64,000 bases of DNA, from assembly GCF_947500075.1 (NCBI RefSeq), contig NZ_CANMQS010000002.1, forward strand, positions 62,001 through 126,000, read 5' to 3'. The stretch is from an uncultured Sulfitobacter sp. GTDB taxonomy: Bacteria > Pseudomonadota > Alphaproteobacteria > Rhodobacterales > Rhodobacteraceae. Both the position numbers and the translations under genes were made by a program. How positions within the stretch are numbered: position 1 is the first letter of the stretch; each line of letters opens with the position of its first letter. Positions 6,775 through 21,239 of the stretch are shown one piece after another. Under the pieces are notes generated by a model. The model ran no database searches, was not told the DNA's origin, and saw only the letters and a list, made by a program, of their open reading frames with translations.

Positions 6775-7992
6775 ATGTCACTGAAGAAATCACTTCTTGC
6801 TGCAAGCGCCTTGGCTTTGGTCGCGGCGGGTGCAGCGCAAGCCCAATCTATGTCCTCGGCTGGTGCCTTGGCATTTGACGACACCAACACTCTCTTTGTT
6901 GGCGATGCCAAAGCGGGACTTGTTCATGCGTTTGACTTGTCAGGCGCGCTTGTGGATCAGGCCGACTATCAGTTGGGCCGCGCGCAAACCTTTGAAGGAC
7001 GCACGATCTTCAATCATCTCGACGTTGAAATTGCAGCCCTTCTGGGCATAGAGGCAGCTGATGTCGTGATCAATGACATGGTAGTGCACAAGCCTACCAA
7101 ACAAGTTCTTCTTTCGATTCATCGCGGTCACGGTCCTGATGCCGAGGCGGTGATCATTGCGGTGAACAATGGTGCACTTGAACTGATTGATCTTGACGCG
7201 GCAGAGCATTCTTCGATGAGCGTTGGACCTGTTCCGACGTCCGAGACACTGGAGTTTGGGCAGCCGCTGAACACACTCGCAATCACAGACATCGATTACT
7301 ACAACGGTGAGCTTCTTGTGGCAGGCGTGTCGAATGAGGAATTCAGCTCCAAGCTACGTCGCATCCCGTTCCCTTTCACAAATGAGATCAGCACATCGTC
7401 GATCGAAATTTGGCATGCCGTGCACGCTCAATATGAAACTCGCGCTCCAATCATTTCTCAAACTGTGGCTGAGCTGGACGGTGTGCCAACGCTGATCGCG
7501 ATCTACGCTTGTACGCCAATCGTCAAAATCCCGCTCACGGATCTGACTGACGGCGCGGAGGTGCGCGGAACGATGATCGGGGAAATGGGCTTTGGCAACA
7601 CCCCGCTCGACATCGTTCCTTATGTCAATGGTTGGGACGGGACCAGCAATGTGGTTGTGACTAATTCCAACCGATCCGCGGCCTCGCTGAACATTGAAGC
7701 GATCGGCGCGGCCGAAGCAATGCCGCATGGCGAAGGTGTACAGAACGTGTTCTCGGTCGCCGGTGTTGATCAATTCCCATTGCCTATGAGTGGTACACTG
7801 CACCTGGACACGCTGGACGACACCTATGCGCTTGTTGTGCGCCGCAGCCCCGAGGATGTGCGCAACATGCAGTTGCACACGGTCCCAATGCCATTCTTCT
7901 TTGATCGTGCCGACCACGTGGTTGAGATGAACTTTGACGGCAGCCCCGATCCGTTCGGGTACAAGGCCGCTCCTCCGGTGGAATACAACTAA
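6775..7992 (+). CDS. secreted protein of unknown function, probable beta-propeller
   Basis: A 405-residue exported protein. Residues 1-23 form a Sec signal peptide (KKSLLAASALALVAAGAAQA, cleavage before Q). The mature chain has recurring strand-rich segments such as AFDDTNTLFVGDAKAGLVHAF and LAITDIDYYNGELLVAGVSN, which resemble NHL/YncE-type propeller blades. No catalytic motif is recognised. It is the first gene of an operon with a second secreted protein (one-base overlap in TAATG), pirin, glutathionyl-hydroquinone reductase, a CDGSH fusion and a hemerythrin. A periplasmic substrate-binding or redox role is only inference from those neighbours. Confidence 0.8.
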   Translation: MSLKKSLLAASALALVAAGAAQAQSMSSAGALAFDDTNTLFVGDAKAGLVHAFDLSGALVDQADYQLGRAQTFEGRTIFNHLDVEIAALLGIEAADVVINDMVVHKPTKQVLLSIHRGHGPDAEAVIIAVNNGALELIDLDAAEHSSMSVGPVPTSETLEFGQPLNTLAITDIDYYNGELLVAGVSNEEFSSKLRRIPFPFTNEISTSSIEIWHAVHAQYETRAPIISQTVAELDGVPTLIAIYACTPIVKIPLTDLTDGAEVRGTMIGEMGFGNTPLDIVPYVNGWDGTSNVVVTNSNRSAASLNIEAIGAAEAMPHGEGVQNVFSVAGVDQFPLPMSGTLHLDTLDDTYALVVRRSPEDVRNMQLHTVPMPFFFDRADHVVEMNFDGSPDPFGYKAAPPVEYN

Positions 7993-9077
7993 TGTCCACC
8001 CTAAGACGTTGGGTGCGGCGAGCTTTGCTCGCCGTTCTCCTTTCCAACCCTATACCAGTCTTTGCGGAAATTGTGGCACGACTGGACATCGAGACTGGCA
8101 ATGTTGTTCTGTCTGGGCTTGCATCAGCTGAACACCAAGCTGTGCTGGCGAAACCGGATGTCTTGCGTCTCCAGGTGGCGTCGTCGATGTCAGATCGCGG
8201 GATGTTGGTTTCCCTAGTCTCAGATAGTGGCGATATCTTGGTCGCCCCGCGGTTCCCGCTGCGCCCGGGCACCGACTATGCGCTGAAGCTGGACCTTCCA
8301 AAGAGCCAATTTGAGACCATCTTGACACTACCAGCGCCCGATGCAGAAGCCCCACAACTGATCGCCTTTGCTCCGTCTCAAGCGGTGCTCCCGGCCAACA
8401 TTTTGAGGCTTTATCTGACCTTCTCGCAGCCTATGGACAGTGGACAGTTGAGACAGTCTGTGACCTTGCTGCGCGCTGATGGCACGGAGGTACCGAACCC
8501 GTTCCTGAACCTCGAGACAGAGCTATGGGATGGCGCACAGACCCGCGCGACACTGCTTCTTGATCCCGGCCGGATCAAGCAAGGTGTTGGCCCAAATGCA
8601 GAGGTCGGTGCGCCGTTGGAAGCTGGCGAGAGTTATCGTCTGCGCGTAGCGGGCAATGTGCGTAGCGCGGCCGGGCAACCACTTGGCAGCGATGTTTCGA
8701 TCGCACTGCGTGTCGGGCCAGCGGAACGCCGCGCGATCAACCCAGAAACATGGCAGATCCTTGTGCCTCAGGCAGGGAGCCAATCACCACTCACGGTCGC
8801 CTTTGATCGGATAATGGACAGCGGTGCTGTCCGGCGATTGCTCACTCTGAATGCACCTGACGGTACCCAGATGGCTGGCCACATAACAACGGATGGCGGC
8901 GGCTGGTCCTTTGTGCCGGACGTGCCATGGCAGCCGGGTTCTTATGATCTCAAGGTTGATCCAGAACTTGAGGATGTGTCCGGCAATACGATTGGCGCAC
9001 CATTTGACGCAAAACCGGGCACAATCGGTTTGAGAACAGACCCCGTGCGCCTCTCCATCAACATTACGTCGGAATAA
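7992..9077 (+). CDS. secreted protein with bacterial Ig-like (Big_5-type) domains
   Basis: A 361-residue exported protein with an N-terminal signal (RRWVRRALLAVLLSNPIPVFA). Two segments, LRLYLTFSQPMDSGQLRQSV (about residue 135) and LTVAFDRIMDSGAVRRLLTL (about 260), carry the F(S/D)xxMDSG hallmark of SbsA/Big_5 Ig-like domains. The C-terminal strand-rich region (YDLKVDPELEDVSGNTIG) fits the same fold. No enzymatic motif is visible. Its start overlaps the stop of the propeller-like gene by one base, so the two secreted proteins are probably made together and may form a complex. Confidence 0.78.
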   Translation: MSTLRRWVRRALLAVLLSNPIPVFAEIVARLDIETGNVVLSGLASAEHQAVLAKPDVLRLQVASSMSDRGMLVSLVSDSGDILVAPRFPLRPGTDYALKLDLPKSQFETILTLPAPDAEAPQLIAFAPSQAVLPANILRLYLTFSQPMDSGQLRQSVTLLRADGTEVPNPFLNLETELWDGAQTRATLLLDPGRIKQGVGPNAEVGAPLEAGESYRLRVAGNVRSAAGQPLGSDVSIALRVGPAERRAINPETWQILVPQAGSQSPLTVAFDRIMDSGAVRRLLTLNAPDGTQMAGHITTDGGGWSFVPDVPWQPGSYDLKVDPELEDVSGNTIGAPFDAKPGTIGLRTDPVRLSINITSE

Positions 9078-9097: not shown

Positions 9098-10012
9098 ATG
9101 TCCATTCGTCCCGCCATTGGCAGCTCACTTGCCCAACCCACGATGGAAGGCGCAGGTGTTCATTTGCATCGTGCCTTTGGCTTTCAGGAGCCTGAAGCAC
9201 ACGACCCTTTCCTGCTTCTGGACGACTTTCGCAACGACGATCCAGCAGCCTTTGAACGCGGTTTTCCATGGCACCCCCATCGAGGGATTGAAACGATCAC
9301 CTATGTGCTCGAAGGTTCGGTGGAGCATTCTGACAGTCTGGGTAACACCGGATCGCTCGGCGCGGGTGACATTCAGTGGATGACCGCCGGATCAGGTATT
9401 CTGCATCAAGAAATGCCAACTGGTAATGCACGCGGTCAGATGCACGGGTTTCAGCTTTGGGCCAACCTTCCGGGCAGCCTCAAAATGACAGCACCGCGCT
9501 ATCAAGATGTCGAGGCTACAGAGATACCCGAGATTGTCGACGATGATGGCACCGTCGTGAAAGTCGTGATCGGAGAGTTCTGGGGCAAGCGTGGTCCCGT
9601 TGATGGTATCGCGGCTGATCCGCTTTACCTAGATATCCGGGTGCCCGCTGGGTTGAAAAAGCGGTTCAAGGTCGACACCTATCGCAGCACTTTTGCTTAT
9701 GTTTTTGATGGGCAAGCGCGGTTCACAGATGCTTCGGCCCCTTCTGGCGTTCTGCTGGAAAAAGAGGTTGCCGGACAAGAGCTGAACATCCGCGACATGT
9801 CCGGCAATCGCACGTTGATCCGCTTTGGCACAGGCGACGATATAGAGGTTCAGGCAAGCCCAGAGGGCGTGCGCTTTCTGTTGGTCGCCGGGACACCGAT
9901 CAAAGAACCTGTCGCCTGGCATGGCCCGATCGTGATGAACACGAAAGCAGAGCTGCAGCAGGCCTTTGCCGAGTTGCGCAATGACACCTTCATAAAACCA
10001 TTAGACCACTAG
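9098..10012 (+). CDS. pirin family protein
   Basis: A cytoplasmic bicupin (304 aa) of the pirin family, some members of which oxidise flavonols such as quercetin and others act as redox-sensing regulators. The metal ligands are intact: His59 and His61 in PWHPHRGIET, His103 and Glu105 in GSGILHQEMP. Length and spacing match ordinary pirins. A strong AAAGGAGG ribosome site precedes ATG 9098. It follows the secreted-protein pair by 20 nt and precedes the glutathionyl-hydroquinone reductase by 11 nt, consistent with a role in handling phenols or quinones. Confidence 0.92.
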   Translation: MSIRPAIGSSLAQPTMEGAGVHLHRAFGFQEPEAHDPFLLLDDFRNDDPAAFERGFPWHPHRGIETITYVLEGSVEHSDSLGNTGSLGAGDIQWMTAGSGILHQEMPTGNARGQMHGFQLWANLPGSLKMTAPRYQDVEATEIPEIVDDDGTVVKVVIGEFWGKRGPVDGIAADPLYLDIRVPAGLKKRFKVDTYRSTFAYVFDGQARFTDASAPSGVLLEKEVAGQELNIRDMSGNRTLIRFGTGDDIEVQASPEGVRFLLVAGTPIKEPVAWHGPIVMNTKAELQQAFAELRNDTFIKPLDH

Positions 10013-10023
10013 AAGATCTGAGT

Positions 10024-11013
10024 ATGGGACTGCTTCAAGACGGCAAATGGGTCGACCAGTGGTACGACACAAAATCGAGCGGCGGCAGGTTCGTCCGAAA
10101 GGACTCAGCGTTTCGCAATTGGGTCACTGCGGACGGCGCTGCTGGTCCCACCGGGACCGATGGCTTCAAGGCTGAGGCTGGCCGATATCATCTATACGTT
10201 TCTTTGGCCTGCCCATGGGCGCATCGGACACTGATCTTCCGCGCGCTCAAAGGGCTAGAAGATATGATCGACGTTTCGGTCGTGAACTGGTTCATGGGCA
10301 AGGACGGTTGGACGTTTTCGCCCGGGGAAGGTGCTACGCCAGATCATCTTCATGGCTCGGAGTTTCTGTACCAAGTCTATACCACGGCTGATGCAACGTA
10401 CTCTGGGCGCGTTACCGTCCCCGTTTTGTGGGACAAGGTGCAAAACACGATCGTGTCCAACGAAAGCGCCGAGATCATTCGGATGCTGAATAACGCGTTT
10501 GACGAGATTGGTGCCAAACCCGGCGACTACTACCCCCAACCGTTGCGGGGTGAAATCGACGAGATCAACGAGCGCATCTACGACACTGTCAACAACGGCG
10601 TCTACAAAGCCGGGTTCGCCACCACACAAGACGCCTACGAAGAAGCGCTTGTACCGTTGTTTGATACGCTGGATTGGCTAGAAGAGCGTCTTTCGACACG
10701 CCGCTATCTTATGGGCAGCACACAGACTGAGGCCGATTGGCGGCTCTTTACCACACTCGTGCGTTTTGATCCGGTTTATGTCGGTCACTTCAAATGCAAC
10801 CTGCGTCGTATCGCGGATTACCAGAACCTGTTTGGCTATGTGCGTGACCTCTATCAGCAACCGGGCGTCGCTGAGACCGTCGACCTGCCTTACATCAAAA
10901 ACCACTATTACGGCAGCCATACGACCGTGAACCCGACAAGCGTCGTGCCTATGGGGCCGATTATTGACTACACCGCGCCGCATGATCGTGCGCGTTTGAA
11001 CAAGGAGACATAG
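10024..11013 (+). CDS. glutathionyl-hydroquinone reductase (Xi-class GST, YqjG/PcpF type)
   Basis: Cytoplasmic enzyme (329 aa) that uses glutathione to reduce glutathionyl-hydroquinones, rescuing hydroquinones trapped as GSH conjugates. The catalytic cysteine is Cys63 in SLACPWAHRT, the defining CPWA motif of the Xi class. The N-terminal SGGRFVRKDSAFRNWV and the C-terminal GST helical region (from about residue 180) with TEADWRLFTTLVRFDPVYVG match the family. PcpF, which serves chlorinated hydroquinone degradation, belongs here. Its place near a hydroxyquinol dioxygenase cluster supports a quinone-detoxification role. Confidence 0.93.
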   Translation: MGLLQDGKWVDQWYDTKSSGGRFVRKDSAFRNWVTADGAAGPTGTDGFKAEAGRYHLYVSLACPWAHRTLIFRALKGLEDMIDVSVVNWFMGKDGWTFSPGEGATPDHLHGSEFLYQVYTTADATYSGRVTVPVLWDKVQNTIVSNESAEIIRMLNNAFDEIGAKPGDYYPQPLRGEIDEINERIYDTVNNGVYKAGFATTQDAYEEALVPLFDTLDWLEERLSTRRYLMGSTQTEADWRLFTTLVRFDPVYVGHFKCNLRRIADYQNLFGYVRDLYQQPGVAETVDLPYIKNHYYGSHTTVNPTSVVPMGPIIDYTAPHDRARLNKET

Positions 11014-11014
11014 G

Positions 11015-12547
11015 ATGAGCAATCAAGCCGTTCCGATCATTGCTGCCAAAGCCCCAACCAAAGTCGCCCTGGAGGCCGGAAAAGACTACTTTTGGTGCCA
11101 ATGCGGTCGTTCCAAATCACAACCTTTCTGCGATGGTTCGCACGCTGGGACTGATATCACACCGCTGAAATTTACCGCCGAAAAAGACGGCGATGCAGCA
11201 TTGTGCCAATGCAAATCCACGGCCAATGGCCCTTTCTGTGACGGCTCGCATACCCGGCTCGGTGATCTGGCAGTGGGCGACGCAGCACCTGCACCCAAGT
11301 CGGACACCCCGCAGGCGACCCCAACCCCCGAGGAGCCTACAGTGGCCCGCATCCACGCGCTAGCCAAGGACGGGCTATCGAAACTGGGTCACCATGGTGA
11401 AATGGGGTCCATGGGTGTGCCTCGCAAAGATCTGCCGCATTGGGACGACATTCAGATACTTCCCGCGCAGATGGCGCGCAAACCGTTGTTGGACGACGCC
11501 TCGGTTTCTACGGCAATCACCATTGGACCACGTGCCAAAAGGCCCCTGCAACTCGATATCCCGCTCTTTGTCTCTGACATGAGCTATGGTGCGCTTTCTG
11601 AAGAGGCCAAAACCGCGCTTGCCCGAGGGGCCCAAATTGCAGGCACGGGCATTTGTTCAGGCGAAGGCGGCATGTTACCAGAAGAGCAGGCCGAAAATGC
11701 GCACTACTTCTATGAATTGGCTTCTGCACAGTTTGGTTGGTCGCTGGATCATGTTGCACACGTGCAGGCCTTTCATTTTAAGGGTGGTCAAGGTGCCAAG
11801 ACCGGCACTGGGGGTCACCTGCCAGGCAATAAAGTTCAGGGCAAAATAGCGGAGGTGCGCGGACTGAAGGAGGGCCAGGACGCGATTTCTCCAGCGACTT
11901 TCCCGGAGCTTCATACGCCGCAGGATTTCAAACGCATTGCCGATCAAGTGCGCGAACGCTCCGGCGGTATTCCTATCGGGTTCAAACTTTCGGCCAATCA
12001 CATCGAAGACGATATCGACTTTGCGTTGGAAGCGAGCGCGGACTACATCATCCTCGATGGACGCGGAGGCGGTACAGGTGCCGCACCATTGATTTTCCGT
12101 GACCATATTTCAGTGCCGACAATCCCGGCTTTGGCGCGTGCGCGCAAGCATTTGGATGCAAAGACCGGACGTGAAGTGACGTTGGTCATCACGGGTGGGC
12201 TGCGCGTTGCCGAGGATTTTGTCAAAGCCTTGGCGCTCGGTGCCGATGCGGTCGCTGTCAGCAATTCGGCTATGCAGGCAGTCGGCTGTATCGCGGCACG
12301 CATGTGCAATTCCAACAACTGCCCGGTCGGTGTTGCAACGCAAAAGCCCGAGTTGCGCAAGCGCCTTGACGTCCAAGTCGGGGCAGAACGCTTGGCACGT
12401 TATTTCGGTGCCAGTGTCGAGTTGATGCAAGTAATGGCCCGTGCATGCGGTCACGACAGCCTGTCCGACTTCACGCCGCGCGACATAACCAGTTGGAAAC
12501 GCGAAACAGCTGATCTGAGCGGTATTCGCTATGCCGGAGTTTCCTAA
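11015..12547 (+). CDS. double CDGSH iron-sulfur domain fused to glutamate-synthase-like FMN barrel
   Basis: A 510-residue fusion. The N-terminus has two CDGSH motifs: Cys28-x-Cys30 with CDGSH 39-43, and Cys64-x-Cys66 with CDGSH 75-79, each expected to bind a 2Fe-2S cluster. A Pro/Thr-rich linker (about 88-110) joins it to a GltB-type FMN-binding barrel. The barrel keeps the 3Fe-4S cysteines Cys425, Cys431 and Cys436 (C-x5-C-x4-C) and the KPGQGAKxGxGGxLPGxK-like loop (FKGGQGAKTGTGGHLPGNKV). The glutaminase domain of true glutamate synthase is absent, so the substrate is unknown. The gene starts one base after the previous stop. A multi-cluster redox enzyme is a fair inference. Confidence 0.88.
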   Translation: MSNQAVPIIAAKAPTKVALEAGKDYFWCQCGRSKSQPFCDGSHAGTDITPLKFTAEKDGDAALCQCKSTANGPFCDGSHTRLGDLAVGDAAPAPKSDTPQATPTPEEPTVARIHALAKDGLSKLGHHGEMGSMGVPRKDLPHWDDIQILPAQMARKPLLDDASVSTAITIGPRAKRPLQLDIPLFVSDMSYGALSEEAKTALARGAQIAGTGICSGEGGMLPEEQAENAHYFYELASAQFGWSLDHVAHVQAFHFKGGQGAKTGTGGHLPGNKVQGKIAEVRGLKEGQDAISPATFPELHTPQDFKRIADQVRERSGGIPIGFKLSANHIEDDIDFALEASADYIILDGRGGGTGAAPLIFRDHISVPTIPALARARKHLDAKTGREVTLVITGGLRVAEDFVKALALGADAVAVSNSAMQAVGCIAARMCNSNNCPVGVATQKPELRKRLDVQVGAERLARYFGASVELMQVMARACGHDSLSDFTPRDITSWKRETADLSGIRYAGVS

Positions 12548-12627
12548 GACGCATAGCTGTTCCTGCAATCGCTGACCTACTGGGCAGGCGCCAACCTGCC
12601 CACGTAGGACGTGAAAGGAGACGACCA

Positions 12628-13194
12628 ATGCTCGATACATACCAAATCCGCCAGGACGAGATGCCGAAAGACATGCGGCTGCTCCTGAACCATTTCCCCC
12701 GCGATAGTTGGGAGGCGCACCCTGGGTTCAAGGACAAGACGCGTCAATGGATGCACGCGCATCAGGGTTTTCGGATGTTGGCCGAACGCATTCGCGCGGA
12801 CACTGAATTGCTGCTCAATAAGGACATGGCAGCGGACGATTATGCCGCACGTTTGTCTTTTCTGGGCGGGAGGCTGGTCGGCAACCTTCATGGCCATCAT
12901 AGCTGGGAAGATCACAGCTATTTCCCAGAGCTCTCCGCCGCCGACCCGCGTTTTGATGCGGGTCTTGAGGTGCTGGAACAAGATCATGCTGATCTGGATG
13001 TCGTGTTGGAAGATTTTACCCGACAGGCCAATCGCGTGATCAAGTTGACCGCTTTGGACGAGGCCCAAACTTATAATGAGGCTGGCGCAATTCACGGACA
13101 GGCAAGTGTGATCGAAGCCTTTCTAAAGCGTCACCTAAGCGACGAGGAAGACCTCGCCGTTCCAATCATTCTGCAACACCGGCTGCGCGGTTAG
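12628..13194 (+). CDS. hemerythrin HHE-domain protein
   Basis: A 188-residue all-helical protein with His and carboxylate ligands spaced as in hemerythrin-like domains: His in MHAHQGFRML, HGHHSWEDHSYFPEL, LEQDHADLD, and LKRHLSDEEDLAVPIIL. Such proteins bind a diiron centre and sense or buffer oxygen, nitric oxide or iron. ATG 12628 follows a good AAAGGAG site. It is the last gene of the operon, 80 nt after the CDGSH fusion; an imperfect GGCAGGcgccaaCCTGCC hairpin lies in that gap. Oxygen or nitrosative protection of the neighbouring iron-sulfur enzymes is plausible but unproven. Confidence 0.85.
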   Translation: MLDTYQIRQDEMPKDMRLLLNHFPRDSWEAHPGFKDKTRQWMHAHQGFRMLAERIRADTELLLNKDMAADDYAARLSFLGGRLVGNLHGHHSWEDHSYFPELSAADPRFDAGLEVLEQDHADLDVVLEDFTRQANRVIKLTALDEAQTYNEAGAIHGQASVIEAFLKRHLSDEEDLAVPIILQHRLRG

Positions 13195-13259: not shown

Positions 13260-14195
13260 ATGAAAATCGACCCACGTCACCTCGAAATGCTCACGGCAAT
13301 TGTCACCCATGGTGGGGTCACCGAAGGGGCCAACGCACTTGGAAAAACACAACCAAGCGTGTCACGTTCAGTATCTGAGCTGGAAAAGAGGTTGGGCGTT
13401 CGTCTCTTTGAGAGTCGGAAGCGTCCGCTTCGTCCAACCGAATTCTGCAACCAGCTTGCACAATATGGGCGAACCATTTCCGAAGCGGGGAGATCCGCAA
13501 GCGAATACGTCATACGGTTCAAGCGGGGTCAGGCTGGGGCTGTTCGAGTGGCTGGGTCTCCCATTTTTATGGACGGAGTTGTGTCTCCGACACTCGCGGC
13601 TTTTCAAGCTGAATACCCGGCAATTACGATTGAGCAACGATACGGATATGTCCAAAAAATCCTCGATAGTCTGACTTCTGACCAGTTGGACATTGGTATC
13701 GTGCCCATCAGATCGTCTCAGGTACCAGCGGGTGTGAAGGCGCAACAACTCCTGCCTGGCCGCAACGTTATTGCGTGCAGACTTGGGCATCCTCTTGCCC
13801 GCCACCCGTCGCTCCTGGCCGAGGCATTGATCGACTATGCATGGATTGCGCCGCCGCCAGAAAGCCCACTTTATCACGATCTTCGAAGCGTTTTGGAAAG
13901 GATCGGTGTCACAGATCTCAAAGTTAGTTTTTCGGGTGGTTCGCTCGCATCTGTTTTGAACTTTCTTCACGAATCTGATGCGTTGACGGTTTTGCCTTAT
14001 TCTGTGGTCTACAGACTAAGTCGGCAAAACACGCTTTCGGCTTTACCGCTCCCGATTGGGGATCCGGACCGACATTTGTGCGCCTTAACTCCAGCGGCTT
14101 CTCCTGATTTTCCGGCGCGGACCAGGCTGCTTCAATACCTTGGGGCAGAGTTGTCGTCGCTGAATGATCTTATGAACATGCACGACTCCGTTTAG
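13260..14195 (+). CDS. LysR-family transcriptional regulator
   Basis: A 311-residue regulator with the N-terminal helix HLEMLTAIVTHGGVTEGANA and KTQPSVSRSVSELEKRLGVRL, followed by a ligand-binding domain. It precedes the maleylacetate reductase gene on the same strand. The gap between them carries the perfect palindrome ATACCAATTTGGTAT, a T-N11-A LysR box. It is the likely activator of the hydroxyquinol-type operon 14317-21239, with a pathway intermediate as effector; that is inference from context. Confidence 0.88.
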   Translation: MKIDPRHLEMLTAIVTHGGVTEGANALGKTQPSVSRSVSELEKRLGVRLFESRKRPLRPTEFCNQLAQYGRTISEAGRSASEYVIRFKRGQAGAVRVAGSPIFMDGVVSPTLAAFQAEYPAITIEQRYGYVQKILDSLTSDQLDIGIVPIRSSQVPAGVKAQQLLPGRNVIACRLGHPLARHPSLLAEALIDYAWIAPPPESPLYHDLRSVLERIGVTDLKVSFSGGSLASVLNFLHESDALTVLPYSVVYRLSRQNTLSALPLPIGDPDRHLCALTPAASPDFPARTRLLQYLGAELSSLNDLMNMHDSV

Positions 14196-14215
14196 CTAAT
14201 CGACCCGTCTACCAC

Positions 14216-14230
14216 ATACCAATTTGGTAT
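14216..14230. promoter_or_regulatory. palindromic LysR-type operator (T-N11-A)
   Basis: ATACCAATTTGGTAT is a perfect 7+7 inverted repeat around one base, with the T-N11-A spacing of LysR sites. It lies between the LysR gene and the maleylacetate reductase start, about 90 nt before the latter. Confidence 0.6.
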
Positions 14231-14316
14231 ACAGATTTGCAGCAATTCGATCCTACCGACACATACTGCCCGCTAGTCTTTCCACAATGAGTTATTCCGC
14301 ATGGCGCGAGGAAGCG

Positions 14317-15369
14317 ATGTCAACATCGTCTGAAAATCAAAGGGTTTTGTTCGGAGCGGGTGTCAGGCACAGCCTTTCCGAAGAGGTGTCCCGCCTAGGA
14401 TGCGCACGAGCTCTGATTTTATCCACGCCGCCACAGTCATCGTCAGCCTTGGACATTGCGGCCGATTTGGGTGGGCTGTCCGCAGGCGTGTTCTCCAAAG
14501 CCGCCATGCATACTCCGACACATGTTTCTGAGGAGGCTGTCCAGCACGCTCGGGAGGTGAACGCCGACTGCGTTGTCGCCGTAGGTGGCGGTTCGACGAC
14601 TGGGCTTGGAAAAGCCATCGCATTGCGCACAGGCCTGCCGCAAATTGTGATCCCAACGACCTATGCAGGCAGCGAAGCAACGCCAATTCTCGGGCAAACT
14701 GAAGGCGGCGTAAAGACCACCTTGACCGACAAGAAGGTGCTCCCTGACGTCGTTCTGTATGACCCGGAACTCGTTGTAACGCTTCCCGTCGGTATGACCA
14801 TAACGTCGGCATTGAATGCGATGGCGCACGCAGCGGAAGCTCTTTATGCGCGCGATAAAGACGCCGATAGCACAAATCTTGCGATCGGTGGGCTAAGGTC
14901 TTTTGCGAATGCATTGCCTGATGTCTTGCGTGCTCCGGACGATATCGCCGCAAGGGAAGAAACGTTGCGAGGTGCATGGGCGTGCGGCGCGGTTTTGGGC
15001 CGGGTTGGCATGGCGCTGCATCACAAGCTTTGCCACACGCTCGGCGGCACTTTTGATCTGTCACACGCAGACACGCACGCCATTGTTCTGCCTCATGCCA
15101 TTCACTTCAATGAGCAGGCTGTTCCTGAATTATTGAAACCAATTAGCGATCTGTTGGACGGCTCTTCGCCGGGACTTGCACTGTGGCGTTTCGCCAAAGA
15201 TCTCGACGCACCAATGTCGCTCAAAGACATCGGCCTTGTTGAAAGCGATCTCGACAGAGCAACCGAAGTGGCTCTCGGAAAGCCTTACTGGAACCCGCGT
15301 GAGATCACCGCTGAGGGTATTCGTGAACTATTGCAGAACGCCTGGGACGGCACTGCCCCAATCCATTGA
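14317..15369 (+). CDS. maleylacetate reductase
   Basis: NAD(P)H-dependent iron-containing-alcohol-dehydrogenase-fold enzyme (350 aa) that reduces maleylacetate, or its chloro form, to 3-oxoadipate. Features are the nucleotide motif VVAVGGGSTTGLGKAIAL, the PTTYAGSEATPILG loop, ALNAMAHAAEALYA, and the metal-type histidines in MALHHKLCHTLGG and LSHADTHAIVLPH. I chose ATG 14317 because GAGGAAG lies just upstream and the length then matches the family; in-frame starts at 14287 or earlier would extend it. It is followed eight bases later by the ring-cleavage dioxygenase gene. Confidence 0.92.
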   Translation: MSTSSENQRVLFGAGVRHSLSEEVSRLGCARALILSTPPQSSSALDIAADLGGLSAGVFSKAAMHTPTHVSEEAVQHAREVNADCVVAVGGGSTTGLGKAIALRTGLPQIVIPTTYAGSEATPILGQTEGGVKTTLTDKKVLPDVVLYDPELVVTLPVGMTITSALNAMAHAAEALYARDKDADSTNLAIGGLRSFANALPDVLRAPDDIAAREETLRGAWACGAVLGRVGMALHHKLCHTLGGTFDLSHADTHAIVLPHAIHFNEQAVPELLKPISDLLDGSSPGLALWRFAKDLDAPMSLKDIGLVESDLDRATEVALGKPYWNPREITAEGIRELLQNAWDGTAPIH

Positions 15370-15376
15370 GGACAAG

Positions 15377-16291
15377 ATGACGACTGACGCAGACATAGCA
15401 GAGATCATTAAGCACCTGCCCAAGGCATATTTCACTGAGGATGACTCAGCCGATGTCGTCACAGGGCAAAATGTGAATGCCAAAGACGCCCGCCTGAAGA
15501 AAGCTATGGAAATCATCACGCGTCATCTGCACGCGGCGATCAAAGAGATCGAGCCTTCCCAGGAGGAGTGGATGAAGGCGATCCTTTTCCTCACTGCGAC
15601 GGGCCACAAAAGCGACGACTGGCGACAGGAATTCATTCTGTTGTCGGATGTGCTCGGCGTGTCAATGCTGGTCGATGCGATCAATTCGCGTCGCCCCAAA
15701 GGCGCGTCCGAGAATACTGTTCTGGGACCTTTCCACGTCGGAGGCACACCCGAATATGAGATGGGCTTCAATATTTGTTTGGATGGCAAAGGTGAGGATA
15801 TGGTTGCCCGCGGCCGGGTGCTGGATGTCGATGGCAATCCACTTGAAGGGGTCAAGATAGATGTCTGGCAAGCTAATGACGAAGGCTTCTATGACGTTCA
15901 GCAAAAGGGCATCCAACCAGACTTCAACCTCCGTGGTGTTTTTCGCACTGGGGCCGATGGCACCTATTCGTTCAAAGCCGTGCGCCCGCAGCATTATTCC
16001 ATCCCTGATGATGGGCCAGTCGGAGAGTTGCTCTATGCCCTTGGCCGGCATCCCTATCGGCCTGCCCACCTCCACTACATCATCGCCAAAGAAGGCTACG
16101 ACGAAGTAACGACCCACATTTTCGATCCTGATGACATCTACATCAATAACGATGCAGTTTTTGGAGTGAAGGAAAGCCTGATCGCAGAATTCGTGAAGGT
16201 CGAAGACCCCAAGAAAATTGCTGAAATGGGTTTTGAAGGGCCATTTTATTGGGATGTTGAATTCGATTTCGTTTTGGCACCAAAAACTTAG
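15377..16291 (+). CDS. intradiol dioxygenase, hydroxyquinol 1,2-dioxygenase type
   Basis: Non-haem Fe(III) ring-cleavage enzyme (304 aa). It has the N-terminal helical dimer domain seen in catechol and hydroxyquinol 1,2-dioxygenases, then the intradiol core from about residue 105 (NTVLGPFHVGGTP). The iron ligands are visible: Tyr172 in ANDEGFYDV, Tyr207 in PQHYSIPDDGP, His231 and His233 in RPAHLHYII. Adjacency to maleylacetate reductase argues for hydroxyquinol (giving maleylacetate) over catechol as substrate; chlorocatechol-type substrates cannot be excluded. ATG 15377 has a GAGG site five bases upstream. Confidence 0.9.
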   Translation: MTTDADIAEIIKHLPKAYFTEDDSADVVTGQNVNAKDARLKKAMEIITRHLHAAIKEIEPSQEEWMKAILFLTATGHKSDDWRQEFILLSDVLGVSMLVDAINSRRPKGASENTVLGPFHVGGTPEYEMGFNICLDGKGEDMVARGRVLDVDGNPLEGVKIDVWQANDEGFYDVQQKGIQPDFNLRGVFRTGADGTYSFKAVRPQHYSIPDDGPVGELLYALGRHPYRPAHLHYIIAKEGYDEVTTHIFDPDDIYINNDAVFGVKESLIAEFVKVEDPKKIAEMGFEGPFYWDVEFDFVLAPKT

Positions 16292-16294
16292 GAA

Positions 16295-17125
16295 ATGACG
16301 ACGCCTTGCATCATATGTGTCGCCATTACTGGGTCTCTGCCGCGAAAGGCAATGAACCCCGCAGTGCCGATTTCGGTATCCGAACAGATCGAAAGCACCC
16401 AAGAGGCATTCGAGGCCGGGGCCACAATTTGTCATGCACATGTTCGCAACGGGGACGAGACGCCATCCAGCGATCCAGAGAAGTTTGCGCGGTTAAAAGA
16501 GGGCATTGAACAGCACTGTCCCGGTATGATCGTGCAGTTTTCAACGGGCGGTCGTTCTGGTGCGGGCAAAGACCGTGGCGGTATGCTGAGCCTGCGTCCG
16601 GACATGGCCTCGTTGAGTGTTGGCTCGAATAACTTTCCGACCCGCGTCTATGAAAACCCGCCTGATCTGATCGATTGGTTGGCCGCTGAAATGCGCGCCT
16701 ATGACATCAAACCTGAAATCGAAGCATTTGATCTGAGTCACATACTCAAGGCGGCCGAGATGCACCGGGCCGGTGCCATCGCCGGAACACCATATGTGCA
16801 GTTTGTGATGGGTGTAAAAAACGCAATGCCCGCGGATAGGCGAGTATTCGACTTCTATGTCGAAACAGTCACGCACCTCTTTCCAGGTTCGCCTTGGTGC
16901 GCCGCCGGTATCGGGCGGGAGCAGGCAATATTGAACGATTGGGCGATTGCGGCTGGCGGTCACGCCAGAACTGGTCTCGAGGACAACATCCGTCTGGATC
17001 GCAACACATTGGCCCCCTCCAATGCTGCGCTCGTTCGAAAAACTGCAGAAATCTGCGCGATTTACGACCGCCCAATCGCAACGCCATCCCAAGCACGCAG
17101 CATTCTCGGCCTTAGGCCGGTTTGA
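16295..17125 (+). CDS. BKACE/DUF849 beta-keto acid cleavage enzyme
   Basis: A 276-residue zinc-dependent TIM-barrel enzyme of the family of 3-keto-5-aminohexanoate cleavage enzyme, which condenses a beta-keto acid with acetyl-CoA to give an acyl-CoA plus acetoacetate. Zinc ligands His47 and His49 lie in TICHAHVRN, and PRKAMNPAVPIS and EIEAFDLSHI are family motifs. Length is normal. It starts four bases after the dioxygenase stop, so is coupled to it. In this setting 3-oxoadipate, the product of maleylacetate reductase, is the obvious candidate substrate (giving succinyl-CoA plus acetoacetate); this assignment is inference. Confidence 0.87.
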   Translation: MTTPCIICVAITGSLPRKAMNPAVPISVSEQIESTQEAFEAGATICHAHVRNGDETPSSDPEKFARLKEGIEQHCPGMIVQFSTGGRSGAGKDRGGMLSLRPDMASLSVGSNNFPTRVYENPPDLIDWLAAEMRAYDIKPEIEAFDLSHILKAAEMHRAGAIAGTPYVQFVMGVKNAMPADRRVFDFYVETVTHLFPGSPWCAAGIGREQAILNDWAIAAGGHARTGLEDNIRLDRNTLAPSNAALVRKTAEICAIYDRPIATPSQARSILGLRPV

Positions 17126-17137
17126 AAGGAAACTCAC

Positions 17138-17791
17138 ATGCCTGACACTGATACTCTCGACAATGAAGCGCGCAGCTCAGCCGCAGCGTTTCAAGCCCGC
17201 AACCTTTTAGCGGACGAAACGACGCTGCAACTGCTGTTTACCGAAGCCCGCACACATTACGGCTGGCAGGATCGCGACGTCAGCGAAGACACTCTGAAAT
17301 CGCTATATGAAATCGCAAAAATGGGCCCGACGTCGATGAACCAGCAACCGATGCGGGTGATCTTCGTGCATTCAGAGGACGCGAAGGATCGGCTGGAGCC
17401 CGCGCTTTTTGAAGGTAACCGGCCAAAGATGCGTAGTGCTCCGGTAACCGCGATCATCGCCTATGATCTGAACTTTTGGGAGGAACTGCCAAACACATTT
17501 CCACCCAACCCAGATGCACAGGAGATCTTCAAGAACAATGCAACTGCAGCGCAGGTGAACGCGTTTAGAAACGGCACTCTGCAGGGGGCATATTTCATGT
17601 TGGCTGCGCGGGCCGTCGGGTTGGACGTCGGCGGCATGTCTGGTTTCGAAAATGCCAAGGTGGACGAAGAATTTTTCCACGGCTCCTCGTTGAAATCCAA
17701 TTTTCTGGTGAACTTGGGATATGCCGATACGTCGAAGATCTTCCGAAGATTACCTCGCCTCGATTTCGAAACCGTTTGCGAAACAATCTGA
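17138..17791 (+). CDS. nitroreductase-family flavoprotein (RutE/HadB-like)
   Basis: A 217-residue FMN-dependent oxidoreductase. The motifs EIAKMGPTSMNQQPMRVIFV, KMRSAPVTAIIAYD and AYFMLAARAVGLDVGGMSGF match the RutE/HadB subgroup, known for malonic semialdehyde reduction and broader enal or quinone reduction. AAAGGAAA precedes ATG 17138. In an aromatic-degradation operon it could keep hydroxyquinol reduced by acting on 2-hydroxybenzoquinone, or remove a reactive aldehyde. The sequence alone does not decide between them. Confidence 0.85.
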   Translation: MPDTDTLDNEARSSAAAFQARNLLADETTLQLLFTEARTHYGWQDRDVSEDTLKSLYEIAKMGPTSMNQQPMRVIFVHSEDAKDRLEPALFEGNRPKMRSAPVTAIIAYDLNFWEELPNTFPPNPDAQEIFKNNATAAQVNAFRNGTLQGAYFMLAARAVGLDVGGMSGFENAKVDEEFFHGSSLKSNFLVNLGYADTSKIFRRLPRLDFETVCETI

Positions 17792-17803
17792 GTGGAGAAC
17801 GAA

Positions 17804-18196
17804 ATGGCAGAGCCGACGATCACAAAGGACGACATCCTGAAAGCCACTCAAGGCATGCTGCAAAAGCAGTTCTACGTGGTTTCCACGAGCCCAACTGATG
17901 GGATGGAGCCTGTCATGGCTGCCTTGGAGGAGCATTTGGCCTTCTTGGTCAAGCTTGGCCAGGATGGGATCCTTTTTGGTGCAGGACCTCACTGGGCCGA
18001 TGATGAGCACAGCTGGCACGGCGAAGGCATGGTGATCCTTCGCGCCGACAGTCTTGCGCATGCCACTGAAATCGCGGGCGAAGATCCGATGCACTCAAGT
18101 GGAGCACGGAAATTCACGGTGCGCCCATGGCTACTTAACGAAGGCGGAATGAACGTTCAATTCGATTTTTCGACTGGCATCTACACCGTTACTTGA
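17804..18196 (+). CDS. YCII-domain protein (TftG-like family)
   Basis: A 130-residue protein of the YCII superfamily, a dimeric alpha-beta barrel with a His-Asp pair. Candidate dyad residues are His44 (ALEEHLAFL) and Asp94 (IAGEDPMHS). ATG 17804 was chosen because GGAG lies six bases upstream; GTG 17792 is an in-frame alternative. TftG of the 2,4,5-T pathway, a YCII protein, removes chloride from 5-chlorohydroxyquinol next to a hydroxyquinol dioxygenase and a maleylacetate reductase, so the neighbourhood is suggestive. The protein here is longer than TftG, and the function is not established. Confidence 0.8.
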   Translation: MAEPTITKDDILKATQGMLQKQFYVVSTSPTDGMEPVMAALEEHLAFLVKLGQDGILFGAGPHWADDEHSWHGEGMVILRADSLAHATEIAGEDPMHSSGARKFTVRPWLLNEGGMNVQFDFSTGIYTVT

Positions 18197-18216
18197 AACA
18201 TCTTAGGGAGGAAAAA

Positions 18217-19263
18217 ATGAAAAATCTCATTTCAGCCGCAGCGATCTCGCTCGCCGGCGTTACAGCACAAGCAGAAACTTACGAACTAACGATGGCATCA
18301 AGTCATCCGACAGTGCTGCCGTGGGTTGGCCAGTTGTCGACATTGGTTGTCGCTGAAACCAATAGCCGCCTCGAAGCTATGGGCTCCGGAGACAGGGTTG
18401 AATGGACAGAAGCCTACGGTGGATCGCTTTATGGGTTCAAGGATACGCTGGAAGCTGTCGGCGACGGTCTGACCGATGCTGGCTGGGTGGGCACACTTTG
18501 GGAAGGGTCGAAAATGCCCCTTCAGAACATGACCTACTTCACACCGTTCATATCGGATGATCTCGTCGCGACATTGCAGATCATGAACGAACTGCATCGT
18601 GAGTTGCCGGAGCTTCAAGCCGCCTGGGATGACCAGAATGTCGTCTTTCTCGGTGCCAGCGGAGTCGAGACCTATCACCTGATGACCAATTTTCCGGTGA
18701 ATTCTATTGCGGATCTGGAAGGGCGGAAGATTCTTGCTCCAGGTCCATCCGCGAACTGGATCAAGCATCTGGGTGCGGTGCCCGTCAATGGTGCGCTTCC
18801 GACTTACTACAATCAGGTCCAAACCGGCGTGGCCGATGGCATGGTCATCATCTTGACCGGCGCGTTTCCGAACAAACATTACGAGGTCGCGCCATATGTG
18901 ACACTCGTCGGCTTGGGAGCTCAAATGACGGGTGGGCTTGGGATCAATAAAGACATTTGGGAAGGCTTGTCTGGCGACGTTCGAAAGGTCCTGACTGAAC
19001 TCGGCGAAGAATACACAGTGGCTCACGCCCAAGAGGTGATGGCGCGTTACGACAGCTTCCTCGCGAAACTTCCCGAAGTTGGCGCCACGGTAACCGAGCT
19101 TCCTGCCGCGGACGTTGAAGCGTGGGCTTCAAATATGCCGAACCTTGCCGGGGAGTGGATCGCCGCAAACCAATCAGACGGCGCCGATGCAGTGCTCGCC
19201 GCATACATGGAGAAGGTCCGCGAAGCCGGGCTTGATGCACAGATCGACTGGGCATCCAAGTAA
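18217..19263 (+). CDS. TRAP transporter solute-binding protein (DctP family)
   Basis: Periplasmic binding protein (348 aa) that captures the transported anion for the TRAP permease. The signal peptide is MKNLISAAAISLAGVTAQA. Family features are the start TYELTMASSHP, the core AYGGSLYGFKDTLEAVGDGL, and the arginine in ADLEGRKILAPGPSANW expected to grip a carboxylate. AGGGAGG sits upstream of ATG 18217. Since it is the operon's only transporter, the ligand is probably an aromatic or related organic acid that feeds the ring-cleavage enzymes. Confidence 0.92.
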   Translation: MKNLISAAAISLAGVTAQAETYELTMASSHPTVLPWVGQLSTLVVAETNSRLEAMGSGDRVEWTEAYGGSLYGFKDTLEAVGDGLTDAGWVGTLWEGSKMPLQNMTYFTPFISDDLVATLQIMNELHRELPELQAAWDDQNVVFLGASGVETYHLMTNFPVNSIADLEGRKILAPGPSANWIKHLGAVPVNGALPTYYNQVQTGVADGMVIILTGAFPNKHYEVAPYVTLVGLGAQMTGGLGINKDIWEGLSGDVRKVLTELGEEYTVAHAQEVMARYDSFLAKLPEVGATVTELPAADVEAWASNMPNLAGEWIAANQSDGADAVLAAYMEKVREAGLDAQIDWASK

Positions 19264-19280
19264 AGAAACGGGGGCGCACA

Positions 19281-21239
19281 ATGCTGACTTCAGCTTCATT
19301 TCGCCACGGAACGAACAAGACGGTAGGCGCAGTCTCTGCGCTTACCGGATTTGTCAGTGGTGCCGCATCCATCTGGATTTTCTGCCTCATGATCCTGATT
19401 TGCTCAGACATCATTGGGCGCTCCATTTTCAACGCGCCGGTTCAAGGCGTTGCAGAAATCGTGGCCAATTCCATCGTTGCAATTGTTTTCTTGCAGGCGG
19501 CACATGCGTTGATGTGCGGTCGCATGACCCGAACAGACATCCTGGCGGGTTGGCTGGAAAAAGAACGACCTTTCTCTGCCGGTGCAATGCGCATCGCATT
19601 TCACCTCGCTGGCTTTGTTGTCTTTGCTCTTATCGCGCAGGGTACGTGGCCAAAACTTGTCGACGCTTGGGTCGAAGGGGAGTTCTTTGGGGCGCAGGGC
19701 GTTTTTACCGCGCCGGTTTGGCCCATCAAGGCGTGCCTCTTTGGTGGTTCGTTGCTGACTGCGTTGGCATTTGCGGTTCAGGCGCTGAATGATTTGAAAG
19801 AGGTTGCCAACTCAGGCCGGTTGTCGCCCCTTCGCGTCAGACACTCAGTCATCACCAAACCAAAGGGCTGGCCGTATCTGATTGCTTTCGTGACGGTTGT
19901 TGTCATTGGCTATGCAATTTTCTGGGCTGACCTGGGCCGTATAGAGGTCGGATTGGTCGCCATTGGTTTTATGCTGCTTCTCATCTTTTCTGGAGCCCAT
20001 ATCGCGGTCGTTTTGATCCTTCTTAGTTTCCTTGGCATCTGGCTGATCCGGGACAACCCGACAGTGGCGATGCGGTCACTCGCCCTCGCTGCAGATGGGG
20101 CTATCAACCGTTATCTGTTTGGCGTGGTGCCATTGTTCGTGCTGATGGGGCTGATTGTCGATGTGGCTGATATCGGCAAGGATGCCTACCGCGTCGCGGC
20201 ATGGCTCCTGCAGCGGATTCGCGGCGGGCTGGGTATTGCGACTGTGGCGGCGAATGCTGTCTTTGCGTCGATTACCGGGATCTCCATCGCGTCAGCAGCT
20301 GTATTTTCCCGGGTGGCGGTGCCACAGATGGTGGCCAACGGGTACAGCAATCGGTTTGCTTTGGGCGTTGTTGCCGGTTCATCGGTGCTGGGAATGCTCA
20401 TCCCTCCCAGTCTTTTGCTGATCATCTATGGCGTCTTGGCTGAACAATCGGTTGGAGCTCTTTTCTTAGCGGCAATCGTTCCGGGTGGTATTCTGGCCTT
20501 GGTGTTTGGCGTCGGCATTTACCTGATGGCCGTTATTCGACCGAAATCCGTCATGCAATCTGAACGGCCTGTGACCATCGAAGGCGAAACGTGGGTCACG
20601 GCGGTGCAAAAACTGCTCCCAATCGCGGCGCTGGTGGTGATTGTGCTGGGCGGCATTTATTCGGGGTTCTTTACGCCAACAGAAGCTGGCGCCGCAGGAG
20701 CCGCGGCCGCTATTCTTGTTGCCCTCGTAAAGCGAAGCCTCACATGGGCCAAATTCTGGCGTGTGCTGGTGGATACAGGTTTGGTTTCTGTCTCGATTCT
20801 GATGCTGATCATCGCTGCGTCAATGTATTCACGTATGTTGACTCTTTCGACGATCCCGCAAGAGACCACCCAGTTCTTTGCTGGAATGGGACTCAGCTTG
20901 ATGGGGTTCATGATGATCTATCTGGTGCTTGTTATCATTATGGGCATGATTCTGGACAGCACGTCGATCATGCTGATTTTGCTTCCGCTGTGCCTTCCGA
21001 TTGTGACCGAACTTGGCGGTGATCTGATTTGGTTTGGGATTGTCACCGTCATTGCCGTTGAAATTGGGCTGCTGACACCACCGTTCGGACTGACTGTTTA
21101 TGTGGTGAAGGCCACCATCGCGGATCGAAGTACAACTTTGGGTGACATCTTCGCTGGCACTTTCCCTTTTGTGATCATGATGACGATTGTCACTTTGCTC
21201 CTAACATTCTTTCCAGCATTGAGCTTGTTCTTTGAATGA
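19281..21239 (+). CDS. fused TRAP transporter permease DctQM
   Basis: A single 652-residue inner-membrane protein combining the small DctQ subunit (about residues 20-180, with ICSDIIGRSIFN and VFLQAAHALMCGRMTRTDIL) and the large DctM subunit (about 200-650, with GVVPLFVLMGLIVDVADIGK, VVAGSSVLGMLIPPSLLLII and LDSTSIMLILLPLCLPIV). Fused QM subunits are common in TRAP systems. It follows the binding-protein gene by 17 nt and ends the operon; a strong hairpin follows directly. Confidence 0.93.
   Translation: MLTSASFRHGTNKTVGAVSALTGFVSGAASIWIFCLMILICSDIIGRSIFNAPVQGVAEIVANSIVAIVFLQAAHALMCGRMTRTDILAGWLEKERPFSAGAMRIAFHLAGFVVFALIAQGTWPKLVDAWVEGEFFGAQGVFTAPVWPIKACLFGGSLLTALAFAVQALNDLKEVANSGRLSPLRVRHSVITKPKGWPYLIAFVTVVVIGYAIFWADLGRIEVGLVAIGFMLLLIFSGAHIAVVLILLSFLGIWLIRDNPTVAMRSLALAADGAINRYLFGVVPLFVLMGLIVDVADIGKDAYRVAAWLLQRIRGGLGIATVAANAVFASITGISIASAAVFSRVAVPQMVANGYSNRFALGVVAGSSVLGMLIPPSLLLIIYGVLAEQSVGALFLAAIVPGGILALVFGVGIYLMAVIRPKSVMQSERPVTIEGETWVTAVQKLLPIAALVVIVLGGIYSGFFTPTEAGAAGAAAAILVALVKRSLTWAKFWRVLVDTGLVSVSILMLIIAASMYSRMLTLSTIPQETTQFFAGMGLSLMGFMMIYLVLVIIMGMILDSTSIMLILLPLCLPIVTELGGDLIWFGIVTVIAVEIGLLTPPFGLTVYVVKATIADRSTTLGDIFAGTFPFVIMMTIVTLLLTFFPALSLFFE

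Follow-up and report, generated by a model that had tools for sequence, protein, structure and literature searches.

Hydroxyquinol is converted to maleylacetate and maleylacetate to 3-oxoadipate by intradiol dioxygenase and maleylacetate reductase, respectively, and in the classical hydroxyquinol pathway these enzymes are followed by the CoA-transferase PcaIJ and the thiolase PcaF. Passages of PMC6449761 propose an ending of another type for catechol, with a COG3246 gene found together with catBCD in Ralstonia eutropha H16 as the beta-ketoadipate cleavage enzyme; for protocatechuate, a DUF849/kce gene instead of pcaIJF is proposed in parts of PMC8963497 and PMC12379598 for Methylobacterium, where the gene lies beside the ring-cleavage genes and pcaIJ and pcaF lie outside the cluster. 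Both proposals follow Bastard et al. 2014 (through PMC4922564). Here, a gene cluster was analysed in a 64,000-nucleotide stretch of an uncultured Sulfitobacter sp. (contig NZ_CANMQS010000002.1, positions 62,001–126,000, forward strand; 'the window' refers to this whole stretch), in which a gene of the BKACE (DUF849) family directly follows genes for maleylacetate reductase and a hydroxyquinol-type 1,2-dioxygenase. The cluster shares its first two enzymes with the classical hydroxyquinol pathway and differs from it in the ending; it resembles the Ralstonia and Methylobacterium cases in the BKACE and differs from them in the branch, which is hydroxyquinol and maleylacetate here. The initial annotation of this DNA, in which no pathway of such a form was known, has to be corrected in view of these proposals: the BKACE activity had already been named and proposed in other branches, and what is added here is the hydroxyquinol branch and a pattern across the family Rhodobacteraceae/Roseobacteraceae. 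A literature search for BKACE (DUF849, 3-keto-5-aminohexanoate cleavage) together with hydroxyquinol found no paper linking the two among the matches listed, most subscription journals being outside its coverage, and the hydroxyquinol passage of a Yoonia paper (PMC10673129), which concerns chlorobenzene degradation genes, contains no mention of BKACE; the BKACE ending in the hydroxyquinol branch and its apparent frequency in the family seem to be little described. As judged from the sequence, the cluster is with high likelihood a hydroxyquinol operon in which a BKACE gene, the last one for carbon flow, stands where pcaIJ and pcaF would be expected.

The BKACE gene product matched the Pfam family (DUF849, PF05853) with 304.5 bits (cut-off 24.8) and exceeded the cut-off of the NCBIfam equivalog NF053568, '3-oxoadipate:acetyl-CoA acetyltransferase', by 141 bits; the same reaction is presumed, in a gene that differs from the reference enzyme by its place in a hydroxyquinol operon of this family. 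The model is presumably traced to Bastard et al. 2014, and CUPNH at the end of its name was taken as Cupriavidus necator. Identity with Kce of lysine fermentation was ruled out (Kce model 244.6 bits, cut-off 382). In an alignment to Kce of 86 BKACE rows (84 different), the zinc ligands His47, His49 and Glu229 as well as Glu143, Arg225 and Asp230 were kept in all rows and Ser83 in 85. The Kce counterparts were assumed to be His46, His48, Glu230, Glu143, Arg226 and Asp231 in Kce numbering. The site of Kce Glu14, which according to a passage of PMC10470551 binds the amine of the substrate, was occupied by leucine in 59 rows (Leu15 in the window protein) and by valine in 27.

Reductase, dioxygenase and BKACE genes are consecutive, with gaps of 7 nt and 3 nt, and all cluster genes from the LysR-type regulator to the TRAP transporter are on the + strand; coordinates and Pfam matches here bear out the initial annotation, as do the closest solved relatives of the reductase, which are maleylacetate reductases. 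For the dioxygenase, the closest solved relatives were 6-chlorohydroxyquinol and hydroxyquinol 1,2-dioxygenases, with catechol dioxygenases ranking lower, and Tyr172, Tyr207, His231 and His233 aligned with the Tyr/Tyr/His/His iron ligand sites, so that the four ligands predicted earlier could be named. The positions used for this residue assignment are those that we take to be the ligand positions of intradiol dioxygenases. Both lines point to a hydroxyquinol 1,2-dioxygenase. The single nearest structure is that of the 6-chlorohydroxyquinol enzyme, and the nitroreductase and YciI genes behind BKACE are reminiscent of chlorophenol clusters; these points would suit a BKACE whose substrate is a related beta-keto acid or one with a substituent, e.g. 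a chloro- or methyl-3-oxoadipate derived from a hydroxyquinol with such a substituent. Close relatives of the BKACE, however, also lie beside protocatechuate and catechol-type dioxygenases, with which the shared product is plain 3-oxoadipate, and such a substrate is considered very unlikely.

The order maleylacetate reductase, dioxygenase, BKACE, nitroreductase, YciI, DctP, DctQM was repeated at loci L007, L017 and L126, and L006 has the same order as far as DctP, where its short contig stops. In the window (on contig C2), the searches detected neither a PF01144 CoA-transferase nor a thiolase of pcaF type, in line with the initial annotation; matches elsewhere in the genome were on C4 for the former and on C1, C3 and C6 for the latter. 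The PF01144 search of the genome yielded one CoA-transferase pair, near topA and outside the window, with succinyl-CoA:3-ketoacid CoA-transferases (SCOT) as the nearest relatives of its A subunit. The best subunit A match to the pcaI/scoA model had 232.7 bits, and with no subunit A above the 300-bit line for PcaI and no subunit of the second type described below for L156, no dedicated 3-oxoadipate CoA-transferase was found in the genome; the single pcaF above cut-off adjoins paaA. A complete pcaIJF set elsewhere in the genome was rejected on these grounds, and the classical ending appears to be absent as a dedicated set. Five BKACE genes were found in the genome, two of them of the NF053568 type. 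The second of these, on contig C4, directly follows pcaHG, so that one genome has this enzyme type beside two ring-cleavage dioxygenases. This pca cluster (L100, 6524–10997) consists of pobA, a pcaDC fusion, pcaH, pcaG and BKACE; the sequence immediately downstream gave no recognisable pcaB.

The co-occurrence search proposed in the initial annotation was run as profile searches on 100 genomes of the family, and its outcome was in favour of the BKACE ending. NF053568-type BKACE genes were present in 69 genomes (78 places), pcaH in 64, pcaF in 62 and the hydroxyquinol-type dioxygenase in 13 (14 places, one broken, in genome G059); two pcaH places below cut-off, both in genomes with another pcaH, were left out. 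CoA-transferase subunit A (pcaI/scoA model) was found in 94 genomes, and in 12 it scored above 300 bits and was classed as PcaI type, a line to SCOT type that was chosen after the gap from 309.9 to 261.1 bits had been seen; the PcaI-type subunit lay within 2 kb of pcaF in 6 of these 12. BKACE accompanied pcaH in 58/64 genomes compared with 11/36 others (Fisher 7e-10; 2e-8 for intact BKACE copies alone, 56/64), these and the following Fisher values counting related genomes as independent. Among the 66 ring-cleaving genomes, 60 carried BKACE (two of them only as copies with a stop), and 54 of these 60 had no CoA-transferase dedicated to 3-oxoadipate under the definition used here. Such a CoA-transferase was present in 6/60 with BKACE and in 6/6 without (Fisher 1e-5), or in 6/58 and 6/8, respectively, when intact BKACE copies alone were counted (Fisher 2e-4). 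Four of the six genomes without BKACE have PcaI; in the other two, the space between pcaG and pcaF is occupied by a different CoA-transferase pair. This pair (L156, 1964–4826; L157, 6297–9125) is unlike PcaIJ in sequence, matching PF01144 and no NCBIfam model at 1e-20, and the search of the 100 genomes detected its second subunit type in those two. With respect to position, 44 of the 78 BKACE places were within 6 kb of pcaH, 5 next to a hydroxyquinol-type dioxygenase and 29 near neither; seen from the dioxygenase, BKACE was adjacent at 5/14 places compared with about 0.0004 expected per place in a rough 4-Mb model. On this and on the recurring gene order, a chance neighbourhood of the two genes was rejected. 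The broken dioxygenase (L119 in G059, 7809–8681) has several internal stops and is apparently a pseudogene, and no NF053568 BKACE was found in G059.

Beyond this survey, the best 80 loci of at least 588 BKACE relatives were analysed, a choice that leans to the subfamily of the window BKACE. An intradiol dioxygenase of hydroxyquinol, protocatechuate or catechol type was near BKACE in 49 of them. Counted with overlaps, the flank contained a hydroxyquinol-type dioxygenase in 14 (directly before BKACE in 13), pcaHG in 22 and a catechol-type dioxygenase in 16, the catechol-type calls being based on 38–45% identity to the window dioxygenase and on two scans below curated cut-offs. The SCOT gene scoA stood directly after BKACE in 8 of the 80 loci and followed it in two family genomes as well, where it is much nearer to the SCOT-like subunit of the window's genome than to a PcaI; at four family places picked by eye, SCOT was within 1 kb of BKACE at two and at 2.2 kb at one. 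This neighbourhood fits acetoacetate as the predicted BKACE product. At L049 (10001–12169), BKACE is followed by a pcaF-type thiolase that is 81% identical to the pcaF of the window's genome. Outside the family, at L144 (4926–8369), PcaI, PcaJ and PcaF directly follow a hydroxyquinol-type dioxygenase; the classical ending here stands in the slot that BKACE holds in the window. Mapped onto a tree of the 86 BKACEs, linkage to hydroxyquinol requires 5 changes, 3 of them enforced by well-supported branches; the hydroxyquinol-linked group includes L057, with its dioxygenase 3.7 kb away, and L129, on a long branch. More than one recruitment of BKACE to hydroxyquinol clusters is favoured because linked rows fall into separate groups (L017 with L042; L055; L065; L129); the tree is no proof of this, and one gain with losses could also account for it.

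The features of the cluster and its flank are listed below. The start of maleylacetate reductase was taken as 14317; 14224, given in the open reading frame list, is an upstream TTG. The LysR-type regulator probably controls the cluster. Relatives of the nitroreductase were found near other hydroxyquinol-type dioxygenase genes (L143, and by profile scan L125 and L150), and the enzyme possibly keeps hydroxyquinol reduced. No ring hydroxylase is present in the cluster; scans for a monooxygenase in L042 and L008, extended to uptake genes in L042, detected a FAD monooxygenase-like gene before the dioxygenase in both and an ABC uptake system in the L042 cluster. Directly upstream lie four redox genes, among them one for a glutathionyl-hydroquinone reductase-like protein, with YqjG and 4fqu as near relatives, and one for a CDGSH/FMN protein that is glutamate-synthase-like. 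All four are kept in L126, from another genus, the hemerythrin-like gene alone in L007, and none were found in the other 10 loci tested; they perhaps belong to the same conserved block and may guard against hydroxybenzoquinone.

Features of the hydroxyquinol cluster and its upstream flank (positions in the window)
Feature	Position	Strand	Basis
Pirin, glutathionyl-hydroquinone reductase-like, CDGSH/FMN and hemerythrin-like proteins	9098..13194	+	Pfam, PDB relatives
LysR-type regulator	13260..14195	+	Pfam HTH_1 and LysR_substrate; kept beside the cluster in L007 and L126
Maleylacetate reductase	14317..15369	+	Pfam Fe-ADH; closest solved structures 3w5s, 3hl0
Hydroxyquinol-type 1,2-dioxygenase (intradiol)	15377..16291	+	Pfam; closest solved structures 8r2x, 3n9t, 1tmx; four ligand residues
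BKACE, 3-oxoadipate:acetyl-CoA acetyltransferase type (putative)	16295..17125	+	NF053568 491.2 bits (cut-off 350); conserved residues except Tyr145
RutE-like nitroreductase	17138..17791	+	NF003768 272.6 bits
YciI-family protein	17804..18196	+	Pfam YCII
TRAP transporter solute-binding protein DctP	18217..19263	+	Pfam DctP
Fused TRAP transporter permease DctQ-DctM	19281..21239	+	Pfam DctQ and DctM

In the pathway that we propose, the TRAP transporter would bring in an aromatic precursor, and hydroxyquinol would be opened by the dioxygenase to maleylacetate and converted to 3-oxoadipate by the reductase, as expected from their family membership. From 3-oxoadipate, the zinc-dependent BKACE would then transfer the acetyl unit to acetyl-CoA, with succinyl-CoA and acetoacetate as the products; equivalog match, neighbourhood, gene content and the replacement in the slot after the dioxygenase support this activity. 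For acetoacetate, activation would fall to the SCOT-like CoA-transferase of the chromosome and cleavage to a housekeeping thiolase. Since SCOT and thiolase would recycle acetoacetate, the balance would equal that of PcaIJ and PcaF (3-oxoadipate + CoA to succinate + acetyl-CoA). The initial annotation had envisaged the BKACE reaction as a finish in one step: the predicted products are supported, and the single step is not, acetoacetate still needing a CoA-transferase and a thiolase.

Several observations weigh against a BKACE ending. An intradiol dioxygenase was missing from the fetched flank in 31 of the 80 best loci, some flanks being short; when the neighbours at these loci were clustered, nothing besides the BKACE region was common to more than 5 loci, the longest-ORF rule having often chosen antisense reading frames. 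Within the family, 9/14 dioxygenase places were without an adjacent BKACE, and 3/78 BKACE places carry an internal stop (one in-frame TGA each at G029:C37:6607-7422, G043:C29:108936-109754 and G052:C11:1225028-1225849, the only copy in G029 and G043). In other families of the class, BKACE was adjacent at 0/13 dioxygenase loci, one of these stretches ending 300 nt past the gene. Because of this, and because the window's own genome was the only one in both class-wide lists of BKACE and hydroxyquinol-type dioxygenase, the coupling is not general; it was found outside the family at loci named Labrenzia, Roseibium and SAR116. A further point is Phe145, which occupies the site of Kce Tyr145 in 86/86 rows. 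According to passages of a 2026 preprint (PMC12871164), Tyr145 occurs in all BKACE sequences, and BsfD, with phenylalanine at this site, makes a different product; a Phe145 BKACE might likewise acetylate and decarboxylate rather than carry out retro-Claisen cleavage. The same preprint reports that BsfD differs in further ways, too. Moreover, the equivalog is named for the reaction of 3-oxoadipate with acetyl-CoA, SCOT genes adjoining BKACE fit acetoacetate, and 3chv, 3fa5 and 3no5, the three structures deposited for this type, also align with phenylalanine at the site, which makes it a subfamily feature and not a peculiarity of the window gene. Divergent chemistry of this kind is regarded as highly improbable; the rule of a universal tyrosine does not hold for the NF053568-type subfamily as sampled, and Phe145 offers a clean test of the role of the tyrosine in the BKACE family.

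Also on the opposing side, the genome contains a pcaF with a good score, and its SCOT-like pair might accept 3-oxoadipate; the classical ending would then be assembled from scattered genes, with the SCOT-like CoA-transferase activating 3-oxoadipate, a PaaJ/PcaF-type thiolase cleaving, and BKACE doing something else. SCOT-type subunit A was present in 59/60 BKACE-bearing ring-cleavers. The relevant passages of PMC12442348 state that pcaI and pcaJ had stayed unidentified in roseobacters and make such an assignment of pcaIJ and thiolases for R. nubinhibens: growth on 4-hydroxybenzoate was lost in a mutant of a CoA-transferase gene interpreted as pcaI, and the density reached was lower in a double mutant of pcaF and a second thiolase. 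However, pcaF there hardly responds to 4-hydroxybenzoate, and the single pcaF mutant grows like the wild type. In addition, 18/60 BKACE-bearing ring-cleavers have neither a pcaF above cut-off nor PcaI, and SCOT-type subunit A also occurs in 4/6 ring-cleavers without BKACE, yet all six keep a dedicated CoA-transferase, as if SCOT alone were insufficient. An ending by scattered genes is thus considered unlikely. The main text of PMC12442348 does not contain 'keto acid cleavage', 'acetoacetate', 'DUF849', '3-keto' or 'aminohexanoate', the search having covered these terms and neither 'BKACE' nor the supplements. If R. nubinhibens has a BKACE, a SCOT acting on acetoacetate would explain its mutant phenotypes.

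Very probably, on the sequence evidence presented here, a single BKACE replaces two textbook final steps at the end of an aromatic-ring cluster. For the family, the chances seem about even that in most ring-cleavers the textbook beta-ketoadipate ending is inoperative, that BKACE, SCOT and acetoacetyl-CoA thiolase form the common ending of the hydroxyquinol, protocatechuate and catechol branches, and that the roseobacter 'pcaIJ' is an acetoacetate-activating SCOT, which would explain a dispensable pcaF. If true, the BKACE ending would supply, for many alphaproteobacteria of this family, a missing part of how aromatic breakdown is completed; it predicts an acetoacetate intermediate and which knockouts block growth, and it cautions against completing the pathway with SCOT genes on the strength of similarity alone.

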